Virus record (IMG/VR): IMGVR_UViG_3300022538_000981
Coordinates: 1 to 25,040 of that record
From: a virus
Length of the DNA: 25,040 nucleotides
Direction: 5' to 3' (one strand)
The position numbers and the translations under genes were made by a program. The notes beneath the pieces were generated by a model. It did not search any database and had not been told where the DNA came from. It saw only the letters and a list, made by a program, of their open reading frames with translations. Positions within the stretch are counted from its first letter, which is position 1; each line of letters opens with the position of its first letter. Positions 3,966 through 10,577 of the stretch are shown here, piece by piece.

Positions 3966-5276
3966 ATGAAGATCAAAATCAAGGATATTAAGATTGAGCG
4001 CTCTAATCAAGATACTCAGCGAATCCGTAAGGACTTCGGAGACATCCAGGAGCTGGTTGAGAGCATCAAGAAGCATGGACTCATCCATCCGATTGTGGTT
4101 GATGAGTGTAAGGATGATTCTCAATATCTCTATACTCTTGTCGCAGGGGAGAGGAGACTGATGGCTCATCTTTACGCTGGATTAACCGAGATAGATGCTA
4201 CCATTCGATCTGAGCTATCATCTTTCGAGAGAAAAGAAATCGAGCTCGAGGAAAATGCTCGGAGAAAAGATCTCTCTTGGATGGAGAAGAACGAAGCTCT
4301 TCGGCAACTTGATGAGCTGAAGCGAGCTATTCATGGGACGAGACTCCCAGGGGATGCTGGAAAGGGAGGATGGACGATCCAAGATACCGCGAAGCTCGTA
4401 GGACTTTCTCTTGGAACGGTTTCGCAGGATATTAAGCTTGCAATTGATTTGAAAGATGATCCGGAGCTAAGGAAGAAAGTATCAGGGATGACAAAGCAGG
4501 TAGCGAGGAAGACGATTGAGAGAGAGAAGGATGCGAAGAGGATGAGGAAGAGGATTGATAGCGGAGAGATATCTGTTGGATCGAGGCTTATTCTTGGGAG
4601 GGCTGAGGAGAAGATTGTTGAGCTTGAGGATCAATCAGTTGATTGCTTGGTGACTGATCCTCCATTCGCGGTTGATGCGATTTTGGACGTTGAGAAAGGA
4701 GCGCTCAGCGGTAGTTATGCAGGAGAAGCAAATGTAGGAGATATAGATGTAATGCAGGCATGTTATGAAAAGTTATTTCCTCAGCTTCGACGCGTGATGA
4801 AACCAGGAGCGCATTTTTATATGTTCTTCGGAATCGATTGGTATAAGGAGCTGCTGGGAATGTTTAGTAAACATGGATTCATCGTTCATGCTGTGCCTCT
4901 TATATGGTCTAAAGGAAGGGGGACGATGATTCCGAACCCGTATCATTATATCCCATCCTATGAGTTTATTCTCTTCGGAATGAGAGAGCCAATGAAGAGA
5001 ACGCTGGCGCATCCGATCCGAAATTGCTTCACAGAGTTTCCAGCTGATGCTCCGCAGAAGCGAGTTCATCCGCTTCAGAAACCCTTTGAGCTTATTAAGA
5101 TGATGATCGAGAACTCAACTGTTCCGGGGGAGACTGTTCTTGATTGCTTTGCAGGATCGGGGATTGTGCTTAAGGTAGCGGATGCGCTTGGGAGGAAGGG
5201 AGTGGGGTTTGAGATGGATGAAGTTAATTATTATAAGGCTCAACAATTCCTTTGTGAGGATCAAAAATGCACATAA
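3966..5276 (+). CDS. ParB-domain / DNA methyltransferase fusion
   Basis: A 436-residue two-part protein. Residues 1-110 form a ParB/Srx-like domain (KKHGLIHPIVV, then G61-E-R-R64). Residues 136-162 look like a helix-turn-helix (IQDTAKLVGLSLGTVSQDI). From about 205 comes an amino-methyltransferase: catalytic motif IV D231-P-P-F234 precedes the S-adenosylmethionine motif D393-C-F-A-G-S-G399, the beta-class order for N4-cytosine or N6-adenine methylation. Phages use such orphan enzymes to mask host restriction sites or mark their own DNA. No restriction endonuclease lies beside it. The recognition site cannot be read from sequence. The ParB part probably binds CTP or DNA; its role here is unproven. 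Confidence 0.88.
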   Translation: MKIKIKDIKIERSNQDTQRIRKDFGDIQELVESIKKHGLIHPIVVDECKDDSQYLYTLVAGERRLMAHLYAGLTEIDATIRSELSSFERKEIELEENARRKDLSWMEKNEALRQLDELKRAIHGTRLPGDAGKGGWTIQDTAKLVGLSLGTVSQDIKLAIDLKDDPELRKKVSGMTKQVARKTIEREKDAKRMRKRIDSGEISVGSRLILGRAEEKIVELEDQSVDCLVTDPPFAVDAILDVEKGALSGSYAGEANVGDIDVMQACYEKLFPQLRRVMKPGAHFYMFFGIDWYKELLGMFSKHGFIVHAVPLIWSKGRGTMIPNPYHYIPSYEFILFGMREPMKRTLAHPIRNCFTEFPADAPQKRVHPLQKPFELIKMMIENSTVPGETVLDCFAGSGIVLKVADALGRKGVGFEMDEVNYYKAQQFLCEDQKCT

Positions 5277-5610: not shown

Positions 5611-5787
5611 ATGGACTTATGCAAAGACCATGATGCTTGTATAGTAGTTTTTGATGAGTTAAGAATCTTGAAAGGATGTCCTCTATGCATTTTGGAGGGA
5701 AAGTTCATTGAGCTTGAAAAGAAGTTCGATGAGCTCGAGAAAGCAAGATCGAGGATGAGTTTTGCGTTGGCTGATAAGGAGAAATGA
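5611..5787 (+). CDS. zinc-finger-like plus coiled-coil small protein, 58 aa
   Basis: Short gene with a GAAAGGATAGAA ribosome site overlapping the previous stop. Residues 4-26 hold C4-x2-H7-x2-C10 and C23-P-L-C26, a likely metal-binding knuckle. The rest (about 30-48) is a charged heptad-like helix (KFIELEKKFDELEKARSRM), likely a coiled coil. Proteins with a CPxC knuckle and a coiled coil are frequent in phage early regions; their function is unknown. The stop lies three bases before the polymerase ATG. Confidence 0.6.
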   Translation: MDLCKDHDACIVVFDELRILKGCPLCILEGKFIELEKKFDELEKARSRMSFALADKEK

Positions 5788-5790
5788 GGA

Positions 5791-8202
5791 ATGATTTGTT
5801 CTGACATCGGGCCGCTTGACGCCTCTATGATGCTAATCGGAGAAGCTCCAGGTCGTGAGGAAGAGAGAGTCGGAACTCCCTTCATCGGCCAGGCAGGATC
5901 GCTTCTCAAATCAATCTGCATAGCAAGCGGTATCAATTTCTACAAATGCTATGTTACGAACATCTCTCCCGAGCGCCCTCCGAACAATAACTTCGGATAT
6001 TTTTATGAGGACGCTAAGAGGAATGTTCCGAAAGCGTCGCTCCGGAAATGCTGGTTTGATCTTGCGGATAAGATCAATCGATTAAAGCCTAAGGTTGTTG
6101 TATGCTTGGGAGATGAGCCTCTCCGAGCGGTCACGAATCTTAGGGGGATTGGATCATGGAGAGGAACAAGGATTGAGGCTCATGGAACTCGCGTGATAGC
6201 GACTTACCATCCAGCGAATGTCCTTAGGAATTATTCGAACCGAGTGATTGCGGAGATGGATCTCTCGAAAGCTCTTCGAGAATCGAAAGGACTTGATTAT
6301 CAGAAGCCTGAGACAATTATAGCTCCGACGATCTCTGATGTACTCAGTTGGATGCAAAGTGCTCGGATGAATGGATCTCGGATAGCGTTTGATATCGAGA
6401 CGTTCGGGACTCTCGTGAGAGCGATTTCATTTGCTCAGCGAAGCGGATATGGAATAACAGCTATCTCGATTCCTTTTATCAGGATGATATCATCTTCTCC
6501 AACATCCTTTGTATCCAATGGAACGATGCTGAAACAGATTGGAGGGAGATCTGAGATAAATTATTGGAGCAAAGGGGATGAGGAGCTTGTGTTACAGGAG
6601 ATAGCAAGTGTTCTTGAGCACAATCAAATCGAGAAAGTAGGCCAGAATTCAATCCACTTTGATTCTCCGCTAATCGAGCTCAACTTCGGCATCAAGACGC
6701 TTAATCACAAGATGGACTTAATGCACGCGTGGCATGTTCTCTATGCAGCGCTCCCAAAGAGCCTTAGCTTCATTTGCTCAGCCATCACTGATCATCCAAA
6801 CTATTGGACTCAGCATGATTCTCAGGTTGATGAGAGTGAGTGGTATTATAATGACATGGACTCTGTTGTTACTCTTGAGGCCTCAGAAAAGGTTGATGAG
6901 GAGTTGATCTCTGAAGGGCTCGCTGATTTTTATTACTCTCACGTTCATCCTCTTGTGGTAGCTCTCTTGAAAGCTGAGAAGCGAGGGATTCTCTTCGATG
7001 CCGAGGCAGCGAAAGGGATGAAGAAAAGACTCGAAGAGAAACTTGCTGAGACTCATGCTCAAATCAACACAATCACAGGACGAGACGTTAATCCAGCAAG
7101 CCCCAAGCAAATGAAGGAGCTCCTTTATGACGAGCTCAGGTTTCCGGTTATTCGGCATCATAAGACTAAGAAACCAACTACTGATGAGAACGCTCTCCAG
7201 AGGCTTCATGCTAAGTATCCTAAAGAAACTGTGCTGAGGCTTATTATCAATCATCGAAAGACTCAAAAGCTTATATCCACCTACGTTGATGTAAAGCTTG
7301 ATCCGGATGGAAGATGTAGATGTAGCTATAACGCGAGCGGAACGATAACAGGGAGGATTAGCTCATCTAAGACGCTCTTTGGAACGGGGATGGATCTTCA
7401 TAATATCCCCGTAGGCTATGTTCCAGGCTCCGAGAGTACTCGGCATCTTTATGTAGCAAGCCCGGGATGCTCGCTTGTGAAGGGAGATTTGAAGCAAGCG
7501 GAGGCTATGGTGGTTGCTTGGATTCTTAAGAGCCTCGGAGATCCGATGCTTTTTGATTATTATCACGATCCATCTTTTGATATCCATAAATGGTGCGCAG
7601 CAAATTTTGTGTATCTTATTCCGGAGGATCAGGTTACTCCGATACAAAGGCAGCAAGGAGGAAAGCTTGCTAATCATAGCGGAAATTACATGGCTGGGCC
7701 GGGAGTAATGGAGAGGAGAGCGCTTCAGATGGGGTATGAGGGGTTTACTTATCAATTCAGCAAAGCTGTTCTTAATAGAAGGATAGAAGGAATCCCGGGG
7801 CTGAGGGTCTGGTGGAGCGATGTAGAGAGGAAGATCAAGGAGACGAGGACGCTCTCTACATGCTTTGGTCGAAGGCTCCATTTCTTTGGAAGGCTCGAGG
7901 GAGAGGAGCTAAGGAGTGCTGTGGCGTTTGAGCCGCAATCGACAGTAGGAGATGTTTGTAATGAGATGTTTATTGAGCTATCAAAGGAGCCTGAGAAATA
8001 CCAACCTGTTTTGACAACTCATGATGAGATAGTCATTGAAACGAGGGATGAGCTTGTTCCCTGGGTAGCAAGAACGATGCAAAGAGTATCAGAAATTTCT
8101 CTCAATCTAAGGCCAAATGTGGAGCCGCTGATGATTCCAATTGAGATAGAGGTAGGTAAAAATTGGAAGGATACGAAAGAATGGTATGGCAAGATGTCTT
8201 GA
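5791..8202 (+). CDS. uracil-DNA glycosylase / family A DNA polymerase fusion
   Basis: An 803-residue protein with three domains in order. Residues 1-165: family 4-like uracil-DNA glycosylase (G17-E-A-P-G21, GTPFIGQAG near 28-36, and ATYHPA at 137-142). Residues 190-380: 3'-5' exonuclease with D201-I-E203, D291 (GQNSIHFD) and Y353-x3-D357. Residues 400-803: PolA-type polymerase with GTITGRISSS, motif A D566, motif B K625...Y633 and motif C H744-D745-E746. All catalytic acids are present. The glycosylase appears to lack Fe-S ligands: E61 stands where family 4 has the Cys of KCRPP, and the N-terminal CxxC is absent. The position equal to Phe762 of E. coli Pol I is His629. It is probably the phage replicase. 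An in-frame stop at 5785 fixes the start at 5791. Confidence 0.93.
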   Translation: MICSDIGPLDASMMLIGEAPGREEERVGTPFIGQAGSLLKSICIASGINFYKCYVTNISPERPPNNNFGYFYEDAKRNVPKASLRKCWFDLADKINRLKPKVVVCLGDEPLRAVTNLRGIGSWRGTRIEAHGTRVIATYHPANVLRNYSNRVIAEMDLSKALRESKGLDYQKPETIIAPTISDVLSWMQSARMNGSRIAFDIETFGTLVRAISFAQRSGYGITAISIPFIRMISSSPTSFVSNGTMLKQIGGRSEINYWSKGDEELVLQEIASVLEHNQIEKVGQNSIHFDSPLIELNFGIKTLNHKMDLMHAWHVLYAALPKSLSFICSAITDHPNYWTQHDSQVDESEWYYNDMDSVVTLEASEKVDEELISEGLADFYYSHVHPLVVALLKAEKRGILFDAEAAKGMKKRLEEKLAETHAQINTITGRDVNPASPKQMKELLYDELRFPVIRHHKTKKPTTDENALQRLHAKYPKETVLRLIINHRKTQKLISTYVDVKLDPDGRCRCSYNASGTITGRISSSKTLFGTGMDLHNIPVGYVPGSESTRHLYVASPGCSLVKGDLKQAEAMVVAWILKSLGDPMLFDYYHDPSFDIHKWCAANFVYLIPEDQVTPIQRQQGGKLANHSGNYMAGPGVMERRALQMGYEGFTYQFSKAVLNRRIEGIPGLRVWWSDVERKIKETRTLSTCFGRRLHFFGRLEGEELRSAVAFEPQSTVGDVCNEMFIELSKEPEKYQPVLTTHDEIVIETRDELVPWVARTMQRVSEISLNLRPNVEPLMIPIEIEVGKNWKDTKEWYGKMS

Positions 8203-8456
8203 ATGGAATATTTGAACTCGCCGGAGGTCTTTTTATTCTGCTGAGTATTTTCAAACTTCATAGAGAAAAAAAGGTGCGAGGAGTCAGCTACATACATGTA
8301 GGGTATTTCACCGCATGGGGATATTGGAATATTTATTATTATCCGTATCTTGATCAATGGTTGAGCTTTGTTGGATGCTTAGCCGTTGTAACGATCAACT
8401 CATTTTGGCTGGGGCAAATAATTTACTACACTATTATGGAGAAAAGAAATGATTAA
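8181..8456 (+). CDS. three-helix SemiSWEET/PQ-loop-like membrane protein
   Basis: Start set at ATG 8181, inside the end of the polymerase gene, behind a GGAAGGATACGAAAGA site. The 91 residues form three hydrophobic segments (about 5-24, 37-55 and 60-84). The stretch FKLHREKKVRGVSY between helices 1 and 2 resembles the KxxKSVxGLS loop of SemiSWEET sugar transporters, and the size is right for that family (half-SWEETs work as dimers). The PQ motif itself is missing. Transport of sugars or nucleosides is possible but unshown. It overlaps the next gene by 8 bases, so it belongs to the nucleotide-metabolism run. Confidence 0.6.
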   Translation: MVWQDVLNGIFELAGGLFILLSIFKLHREKKVRGVSYIHVGYFTAWGYWNIYYYPYLDQWLSFVGCLAVVTINSFWLGQIIYYTIMEKRND

Positions 8457-9396
8457 AAAAGTGTTTCTTGATATGGATGGAGTTCTCACAAATTTCCATA
8501 AGGGAGTATGTAAGACGTTTGATTATCCATACATACTTGACGAGATGATAAGGTACGATTTTTGGGAGGATTGGAAGGAAAAGAAAGTAACGAGACGAGA
8601 TGTCAATGATATATGTAATCAACTTTTCTGGGAGGATCTCGAGTGGATGCATGATGGAAAGGAGATTTTGAAGATTGTTGAAGAAGCTTATGGAAAAGAA
8701 AATATCTTTATTTTCACTCAGCCTATGCCTAATGTAGGATCCTGGACAGGAAAGAGGATATGGATTGAGCATATGGCTCCGGATTACAAGAAGCAATTGA
8801 TAGTGACTCAAGCCTCAAGAGCTTTCTTTGCATCGCCTGATACTCTTCTGATTGATGATAAACAAGAAAACGTGGATGAGTTTATCAAGGCCGGAGGGAA
8901 TGCGATTCTCATTCCTCGTCCTTGGAATCGATTGCTGAGGCATAAGGTTATTCCGCATTTGGAGAAAGAAATAAAGCATTATGCAACTCGAGATTTCCGA
9001 ACGGAAGCAACTTTTTCCGAGGCAGAAATAAGAACATTTACATCAGGAGCCACACGAGACACCGCTGAAGGAAAGCCTAGTTATATCAAAGCTTTATCTC
9101 CCATCGTATTACAAGGTTATGTGGAGTACATCGGCAGACATCGAACTCAATCAGATGGAAGCGTTAGGGATTGGGATAACTGGAAACAAGGAATACCTCA
9201 GGATGTATATCTCGATGGTTTGGGAAGGCATGAAATGGCTGTTTGGTTGCTGTGTCATGGGTTTCCTGCATCCGATAATCACGGCCCTGTGACGCTAAAG
9301 GATTCCCTTTATGGGATAATCTTCAATGCTCAGGGTATGTTGCATGAAATTTTGAAGAAAGAGATAGAATGCCTCGAAAATGCTCCTCAGGCCTAA
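8449..9396 (+). CDS. HAD 5'(3')-deoxyribonucleotidase fused to dATP/dGTP diphosphohydrolase (MazZ-like/DUF5664) domain
   Basis: A 315-residue fusion. Residues 1-175 are a HAD phosphatase of the NT5C type: D8-M-D10-G at the N-terminus, FIFTQP in the middle (Thr motif) and L-L-I-D136-D137 near residue 134. The NT5C family dephosphorylates deoxynucleoside monophosphates, with dUMP and dTMP favoured. Residues 196-310 match the former DUF5664, now dATP/dGTP diphosphohydrolase (S-2L MazZ family): TFTSGATRDTAEGKPSY, NWKQGIP and the GRHEMAVWL helix. This part lacks the usual E-x-x-D dimer acid pattern in the HE..D form I would expect (HEMAVWLLCHG), so activity is uncertain. It overlaps genes on both sides. 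Confidence 0.82.
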   Translation: MIKKVFLDMDGVLTNFHKGVCKTFDYPYILDEMIRYDFWEDWKEKKVTRRDVNDICNQLFWEDLEWMHDGKEILKIVEEAYGKENIFIFTQPMPNVGSWTGKRIWIEHMAPDYKKQLIVTQASRAFFASPDTLLIDDKQENVDEFIKAGGNAILIPRPWNRLLRHKVIPHLEKEIKHYATRDFRTEATFSEAEIRTFTSGATRDTAEGKPSYIKALSPIVLQGYVEYIGRHRTQSDGSVRDWDNWKQGIPQDVYLDGLGRHEMAVWLLCHGFPASDNHGPVTLKDSLYGIIFNAQGMLHEILKKEIECLENAPQA

Positions 9397-10577
9397 TCGA
9401 AGAAATCTGTAAGTTCTACGAGAACACGGAGGTTCCTGCGGTATTCGCTCTCTGGAGCGCTATCTTCGCCGTCAACGCGTGCTTGAAGAGAGATTGCTTC
9501 ATCGATCAAGGACATTTTACGGTCTATCCGAATCTCTATATCAATCTGACCGCTGGGAGTGGAGTATGTAGGAAATCCACAGCCGCGTATGTCCTGACAG
9601 ATTTATTACATGAAGTTAATCCTGCGATCAATATTCTTTCTCAAAGAATCACTCCTCAGGAGCTCATCGGAACGCTCAGCAAGAAGAACATTAAAGATAA
9701 AACAATCATCCTCAACGAAGCTGTAGGATGTTTTATCGCCGACGAGCTATCAACACTCATTGATAAATCAAACGAGATGAAGGTTCTTATTCCAATCCTT
9801 ACAAAGCTCTATGATTGTAAGGATTTTGATTACTCTACTCGAAAATACGGAAAGGAATTGGTGCAGAATCCGTGTCTCTCGATCTTCGGAGGATCGACGC
9901 TTGAGTGGATCAAGGAAGCCTTTCCTACCCACGCGATTGGAGGAGGCTTTACGGCGAGATTTATTTTTCCTTATCGAGAAGAAAGAGATAAAAGAATCGC
10001 ATGGCCGAGAGGGAATCCGGAGAACACAGAGAGATTTAAGAGGATCGTGCATGATTTAAATCAAGTAGCTTCGATGAGGGGATCAATGGGAGTCACCGAG
10101 GCCGCGATTGATTTGTATAGTGATGAGTATAATAGCTTCCTCGATGGAGACATGGCGAATCAGAGCTTGACATCTCGATATGCGGCAAGGAGACATGTGC
10201 ATTTGCTCAAAGTCTCAATGGCCGTTTCCTCATCCAGTCGGGATACTCGGGAGATTACAAAGGAGGACATGTGGAAGTCAATGAAGATAATTCGAGGCTC
10301 GGAAGCGAGGAGGAACGCGATTATGAGGAGAATAATCGCTGAGCCTATTGGAGACATGTGTGAGCATGTGATGTCGCTCATTATATCAGCGAAAGAGGTT
10401 AGGAGGGCGGATCTTATTTATGAGATGAGGCATCGGATTTCACATAAGGAGCTTGATGTGATTCTTGAGGGATTCAGTGAGAGCGGGAGGGTTAAGAAGA
10501 TTAGGAAGTCTGATGGATGGTGGTATAGACTGGTGATGAAGGAGAAGGAGAATGAAGGATCGAATGCTTACGTTTGA
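9369..10577 (+). CDS. DUF3987-like P-loop ATPase (primase/helicase-associated)
   Basis: 402 residues, starting inside the end of the nucleotidase gene with an AAGAAAGAGA site. It resembles the DUF3987 family found with phage primases and helicases: a helical N-terminus (ALWSAIFAVNACL), a P-loop G63-S-G-V-C-R68-K69-S70-T71, an acidic strand (IADELSTLI), and GGGFTARFIFPY, which looks like the sensor/arginine-finger segment. The usual Gly before the P-loop Lys is Arg, a variant I believe recurs in phage members. The C-terminal 80 residues look like a winged helix (ISHKELDVILEGFSESGRVKK). Probably a replicative helicase or loader. No separate primase is visible in the window. Confidence 0.7.
   Translation: MPRKCSSGLIEEICKFYENTEVPAVFALWSAIFAVNACLKRDCFIDQGHFTVYPNLYINLTAGSGVCRKSTAAYVLTDLLHEVNPAINILSQRITPQELIGTLSKKNIKDKTIILNEAVGCFIADELSTLIDKSNEMKVLIPILTKLYDCKDFDYSTRKYGKELVQNPCLSIFGGSTLEWIKEAFPTHAIGGGFTARFIFPYREERDKRIAWPRGNPENTERFKRIVHDLNQVASMRGSMGVTEAAIDLYSDEYNSFLDGDMANQSLTSRYAARRHVHLLKVSMAVSSSSRDTREITKEDMWKSMKIIRGSEARRNAIMRRIIAEPIGDMCEHVMSLIISAKEVRRADLIYEMRHRISHKELDVILEGFSESGRVKKIRKSDGWWYRLVMKEKENEGSNAYV

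Follow-up and report, generated by a model that had tools for sequence, protein, structure and literature searches.

A phage family A DNA polymerase with an N-terminal uracil-DNA glycosylase domain that lacks iron-sulphur cluster ligands

The fusion gene and its neighbourhood

The stretch of DNA analysed here (the window) is a phage fragment of 25,040 bases, a complete IMG/VR record, in which the replication genes are located on the plus strand and the virion genes on the minus strand. The open reading frame (ORF) at positions 5791-8202 (plus strand) encodes an 803 amino acid protein, and Pfam matches, exonuclease residues and a fold match to the Klenow fragment bear out the sequence-only reading that it joins a family 4-like uracil-DNA glycosylase (UDG), an exonuclease and a polymerase in one chain. 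Its ATG start codon is preceded by AAGGAG at 5776-5781 and is well placed, and none of the three upstream frames that were read extends the ORF to provide an N-terminal CxxC motif. A 58 amino acid, Cys-bearing ORF (5611-5787) lies in frame with the polymerase, and its TGA stop codon stands one codon 5′ of the polymerase ATG; the ORF has no Pfam match and no relative in the 153 related loci whose UDG domains lack the cluster ligands (cluster-less loci). The full-length AlphaFold model (pLDDT 93.2, pTM 0.90) returned polymerase entries only among the fold matches listed, and phrog_17, a phage DNA polymerase family, aligned with residues 11-800 in a single stretch, indicating that the glycosylase belongs to a known polymerase type.

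The UDG domain (residues 1-165; 5791-6285, plus strand) matched PF03167 over residues 6-150 (8.7e-24, 84.6 bits, cut-off 24.3). The 3′-5′ proofreading exonuclease (approximately residues 170-375; 6298-6915, plus strand) gave a weak Pfam match (0.079); its D201, E203, D291, Y353 and D357, the acidic and Y/D set expected of a proofreading PolA, are present in 50/50 aligned rows of the window's clade. The polymerase domain (approximately residues 380-796; 6928-8178, plus strand) matched PF00476 over residues 406-794 (5.8e-45, 154.3 bits), and residues 171-796 of the model, from the start of the exonuclease onwards, superimposed on the Klenow fragment (1kfs) with a Z score of 35.7. D566, K625, Y633 and D745 of polymerase motifs A, B and C are invariant in the clade and H744 is present in 49/50 rows; motif C reads HDE in the window protein, with the last residue (746) giving HDS in 38/50 rows. 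The protein does not belong with DpoZ, the aminoadenine polymerase (NF038380, 71.8 bits against a cut-off of 500).

H629 (7675-7677, plus strand) corresponds to the active-site position 762 of E. coli PolA, and K625 to K758. His occupies this position in the window protein and in all 54 cluster-less rows, whereas Phe is found in 13/14 rows from fusions that retain the cluster ligands (cluster-bearing). Viral PolA surveys report position 762 as Phe, Tyr or Leu, and one survey retained only F, L or Y (PMC9069017), a filter by which the His762 clade would have been removed.

Two neighbouring genes are conserved, each found near 126/153 cluster-less loci: a fusion of a ParB-N domain and an N6-N4 methyltransferase (3966-5276, plus strand), and a DUF3987/phrog_14296 'DNA primase' of the helicase-primase type (9369-10577, plus strand). 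Between the polymerase and the primase lies a gene for an NT5C-type pyrimidine 5′-deoxyribonucleotidase (8449-9396, plus strand; PF06941, 30.3 bits, cut-off 24.8) that is specific to the window, being found near 0/153 loci of the other clade members, and that could lower dUMP; its product has an extra C-terminal part of approximately 140 amino acids with no Pfam match. Nothing in the 25,040-base fragment was identified as an AP endonuclease. Genes for thymidylate synthase (TS), pyrimidine hydroxymethylase or dCMP deaminase were found near 7/14 cluster-bearing fusions (eight loci in all: L006, L009, L012, L016, L163, L166, L170 and L173) and near 0/153 cluster-less loci within the flanks examined. 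A link between the window's clade and thymine-modified genomes was therefore rejected, as these flanks give no sign of such a genome, unlike those of many cluster-bearing fusions.

Cluster ligands and uracil pocket of the glycosylase domain

AlphaFold modelling of the UDG domain yielded a confident family 4 fold (pLDDT 96.2), and the closest solved structures were family 4 UDGs and UdgX, with a Z score of 23.4 to both the Thermus enzyme (1ui0, rmsd 1.9 Å) and the Thermotoga enzyme (1vk2, rmsd 1.5 Å). The three motifs named by the sequence-only reading, GEAPG (residues 17-21), GTPFIGQAG (28-36) and ATYHP (137-141), are all present, and both family 4 signatures can be recognised, motif A (GE(A/G)PG) as GEAPG (5839-5853, plus strand) and motif B (HPA) within HPANVLR (residues 140-146; 6208-6228, plus strand). 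The domain thus shares the fold, GEAPG, TN, RPPxN, HPA and all pocket residues with family 4 UDGs, but differs in being fused to a polymerase, in having an insert where the cluster loop would be and in lacking both the [4Fe-4S] ligands and the N-terminal segment that carries some of them; its score against the family 4 model TIGR00758 (92.5 bits) is below the curated cut-off of 125.3. UdgX has the same fold and a loop expanded at the same place, but carries a cluster, GEQPG and KRRIH, none of which occurs in the window domain (TIGR03914, 73.3 bits against 189.95).

Four Cys bind the cluster of family 4 UDGs: two near the N-terminus, that of KCRPP and a fourth in the loop that follows. The model of the window domain begins at the equivalent of Thermus UDG residue 24, past the first two ligands, so that the N-terminal CxxC is missing as claimed. 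E61, within TNISPERPPNN (residues 56-66; 5956-5988, plus strand), stands where KCRPP has its Cys, and this position is hypervariable among the 50 clade rows (V, Y, I and others), none of which has Cys. The claim that C87 survives did not hold: the residue, near the place of the fourth ligand, is Arg in L099, whose UDG domain is 81% identical, Cys in 1/50 rows and mostly Gly. No four conserved Cys were found elsewhere in the domain, C53 being the sole conserved one (45/50 rows, compared with 5/50 for C3, 1/50 for C43 and 3/50 for C105), and the four-Cys [4Fe-4S] set of family 4 is truly absent, as had been suspected. A cluster held through alternative Cys was accordingly discarded.

The loop that carries the cluster in family 4 enzymes is replaced by an insert of 27 amino acids (residues 65-91; 5983-6063, plus strand) that is ordered in the AlphaFold models. 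Across the cluster-less clade the replacement is usually longer than the original loop, with a median of 38 amino acids compared with 18 in cluster-bearing fusions. Cys-to-Ser mutants of family 4 UDGs are reported to retain approximately 60% of activity (a loss of ~40%), and the cluster was reported to be non-essential for hydrolysis and mainly to stabilise the enzyme and its loop (PMC5295032). As these mutants stay active, exchange of the cluster and its loop for a longer insert is compatible with catalysis.

The substrate pocket, whose destruction would have refuted the sequence-only reading, is not destroyed. The pocket and catalytic residues of Thermus UDGa, E41, G42, E47, F54, N80, N89 and H155 (PMC5387724), map without gaps to E18, A19, E24, F31, N57, N66 and H140, the residues between E41 and N89 being spaced exactly as those between E18 and N66; by this correspondence E18 of GEAPG matches E41, N57 would bind uracil, N66 would position the water and H140 is the equivalent of the catalytic H155. 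These residues are kept in 45-49 of the 50 clade rows (E18 49, A19 46, E24 49, F31 49, N57 48, N66 45, H140 49). Across the wider sample, E/D18, F31, N57, N66 and H140 are all kept in 115/141 cluster-less domains, with the remaining 26/141 lacking at least one of the five.

The domain as a whole is also conserved. Mean identity between clade members is 45% for the UDG, 34% for the exonuclease and 37-38% for the polymerase, a pattern that holds for loci fetched by polymerase motifs alone. In pairwise comparison, conservation was higher for the UDG domain than for the polymerase in 433/496 pairs from loci found only by polymerase motifs and in 1305/1431 pairs from a wider set. No such excess was seen in six cluster-bearing fusions (UDG 48%, polymerase 49%). 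Comparison of the UDG domain with that of L099 gave a dN of 0.15 and a dS of 2.1, the latter being near saturation.

Relatives and distribution of cluster loss

Several hundred relatives were recovered by scanning viral contigs; an initial scan of viral sequences with just this one protein as query and a search with a 68 amino acid motif B query each gave no match. Neither the CxxC nor the KC Cys is present in 141/157 distinct aligned UDG domains, a sample biased towards the kin of the query. The cluster-less state forms one well-sampled clade (54/54 sampled polymerases), mostly from phages of ~40-50 kb, and a quick exonuclease-polymerase tree places all 54 rows in a single branch (SH-aLRT 95), with the cluster-bearing vir526 and ctLwi270 as its nearest kin and SPO1 and SP-15 apart. 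This tree implies three losses of the cluster, in the main clade, SPO1 and SP-15. A low-resolution UDG tree groups the phage cluster-less domains (support 85) near three stand-alone UDGs of Rhodospirillales type, which have no cluster and an insert similar to that of the phage clade. Approximately 31/80 bacterial hits, some of them poorly aligned, are cluster-less family 4-like UDGs of other kinds, so that phages are not the only place where members of this family have lost the cluster. The stand-alone cluster-less family 4-like UDGs of L256, L221 and L228 carry an insert like that of the phages; of these loci, L228 and L256 lie amid bacterial genes. On the alignments and tree, cluster loss with the pocket kept is the property of a large clade, neither a broken gene nor a single odd protein.

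Microcystis phage Mel-JY34, ctMlz233, Caulobacter phage Kuura and Desulfofustis phage LS06 belong to the same clade, are cluster-less and in most cases have the same neighbours; their polymerases share 26-29% identity with that of the window, that of Kuura is divided into two ORFs and the LS06 pocket is degraded, and their proteins are annotated merely as DNA polymerase or hypothetical protein.

The fusion of a UDG to PolA was considered as a novelty and rejected, since it already occurs in PaBG gp205, SPO1, SP-15, phiLo and phrog_17. A 2020 paper attributes UDG, exonuclease and polymerase domains to PaBG gp205 and ten of its relatives (PMC7412058); compared by that description alone, gp205 has the same order in one chain, with the UDG at the N-terminus, although PaBG and its relatives are jumbo phages, much larger than those of the window's clade. 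No discussion of the cluster state of its UDG was found in the accessible part of that report. A search with the UDG domain only retrieved 44 phage records, many labelled DNA polymerase, including SP-15, Thermus phage phiLo and Rhizobium, Lysinibacillus and Brevundimonas phages. The polymerase of phiLo, found by both sequence and fold (9qhs), likewise has a UDG fused to PolA, but retains the CxxC as well as Cys at position 61, is 1,175 amino acids long and has Phe at 762. In SPO1 gp31 and the SP-15 polymerase, a UDG-like N-terminus on PolA has lost the cluster ligands as here, but by separate losses on the tree and, unlike in the window protein, together with the equivalents of F31 and N57. 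SPO1 and SP-15 are hydroxymethyluracil or hypermodified-thymine phages. The relation between UDGs and polymerases is reflected in the label 'phage SPO1 DNA polymerase-related protein' that is still attached to UdgX PDB entries. The metagenomic PolA papers make no mention of uracil or a glycosylase, and the cluster-free clade appears to be undescribed in the searchable part of the literature.

Damaged pockets were also found: LS06 has N in place of H140, SPO1 has lost the F and the N, and the LysYB1 pocket is degraded. As these relatives keep the domain despite a damaged pocket, it can serve without catalysis. In Gordonia phage GiKK (L259, 1303-3687), the polymerase N-terminus is a relic UDG in which GEAPG is gone and HP has become SP, and the gene adjoins thymidylate synthase and dCMP deaminase genes.

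Proposed role of the glycosylase domain

On balance, we regard the window protein as a phage replicative PolA whose N-terminal UDG descends from family 4, has dispensed with the [4Fe-4S] cluster and probably acts on uracil in cis. The N-terminal ligand segment would have been lost and the cluster loop swapped for the ordered insert, which may take over stabilisation of the loop and perhaps contact DNA. Because the pocket is kept, the most likely function of the domain is to flip out and remove uracil, or at least to bind it, in DNA on which its own polypeptide is working, and the glycosylase, presumably free of iron in vivo, is probably active and working in cis with the replicase. The uracil could derive from dUMP misincorporated by the polymerase or from cytosine deaminated near the primer-template, and incision and repair of the resulting AP site would fall to enzymes of the host or the phage. 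Two points weigh against this reading: the polymerase would be blocked on meeting an AP site made in the template in front of it, and the fragment yielded no AP endonuclease.

Archaeal PolB has a read-ahead pocket for uracil, and the UDG domain could by analogy be a sensor: having bound uracil in the template or in the product, it would halt or divert the polymerase and leave the base in place. We consider this role possible but unlikely. Conservation of the pocket is as expected of a sensor, binding without cutting would be safer at the fork, where cleavage at template uracil is harmful, and the insert occupies the site at which the R-loop that traps uracil arose in UdgX (PMC10359453). However, the KRRIH and GEQPG of UdgX are lacking, and a pure binder would let the residues of the chemical step drift, whereas H140 and N66 are conserved; in Thermus UDGa, H155S mainly lowers k2 (PMC5387724). 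Of the two roles that the sequence-only reading raised, a uracil sensor and a module removing uracil at the fork, this conservation and the published activity of cluster knockouts make an active enzyme likelier than a sensor alone.

Somewhat more doubtful still is a structural role, in which the UDG fold holds DNA or contributes to processivity and the conservation of the pocket is mostly inherited. SPO1, LysYB1, LS06 and GiKK retain the fold with degraded pockets, and the UDG domain in phage loci is always fused to a polymerase or directly adjoins one, but inheritance fits poorly with a pocket that is nearly invariant in a domain of such modest average identity, and a structural role fits poorly with a domain more conserved than the exonuclease and polymerase it accompanies. 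Retention of the cluster through other ligands (E61, C3, C43, C53, C87, C105) or by readthrough from ORF 5611-5787 is highly improbable, since, despite five Cys in the domain and a CPLC in that in-frame ORF, only C53 is conserved, position 61 varies freely, the Thermus segment bearing ligands 1 and 2 is absent, and the ORF is TGA-closed and without relatives in the 153 loci.

If an active, cluster-free UDG acting in cis is the correct reading, uracil excision is built into the replicase itself. More broadly, and more tentatively, the clade may represent a widespread, unrecognised group of replicases with an active, iron-free, family 4-derived UDG in cis, an insert standing in for the cluster loop, and a His762 site missed by surveys restricted to F, L or Y. 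As the His762 signature makes plain, entire phage groups can be lost in the metagenomic PolA screens now in use. Given that Cys mutants stay active, the clade bears on what the cluster does in family 4, offering a natural experiment in which cluster and loop have been removed and replaced while the catalytic pocket is still constrained. Through it, experiments can also address why certain phages keep uracil removal attached to the replicase.

Some loci depart from the single-ORF arrangement. In L007 (Kuura), L008 (ctLwi270), L054, L094, L102, L113, L114 and L150, the UDG-exonuclease part is encoded by one ORF and the polymerase part by another, with intervening small ORFs or gaps, and these loci are candidates for split genes, introns or frameshifts. 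The polymerase ORFs of L134, L135, L156, L160 and L169 start near the equivalent of residues 545-550 of the window polymerase, close to a conserved motif at which an intron or intein may interrupt the gene.
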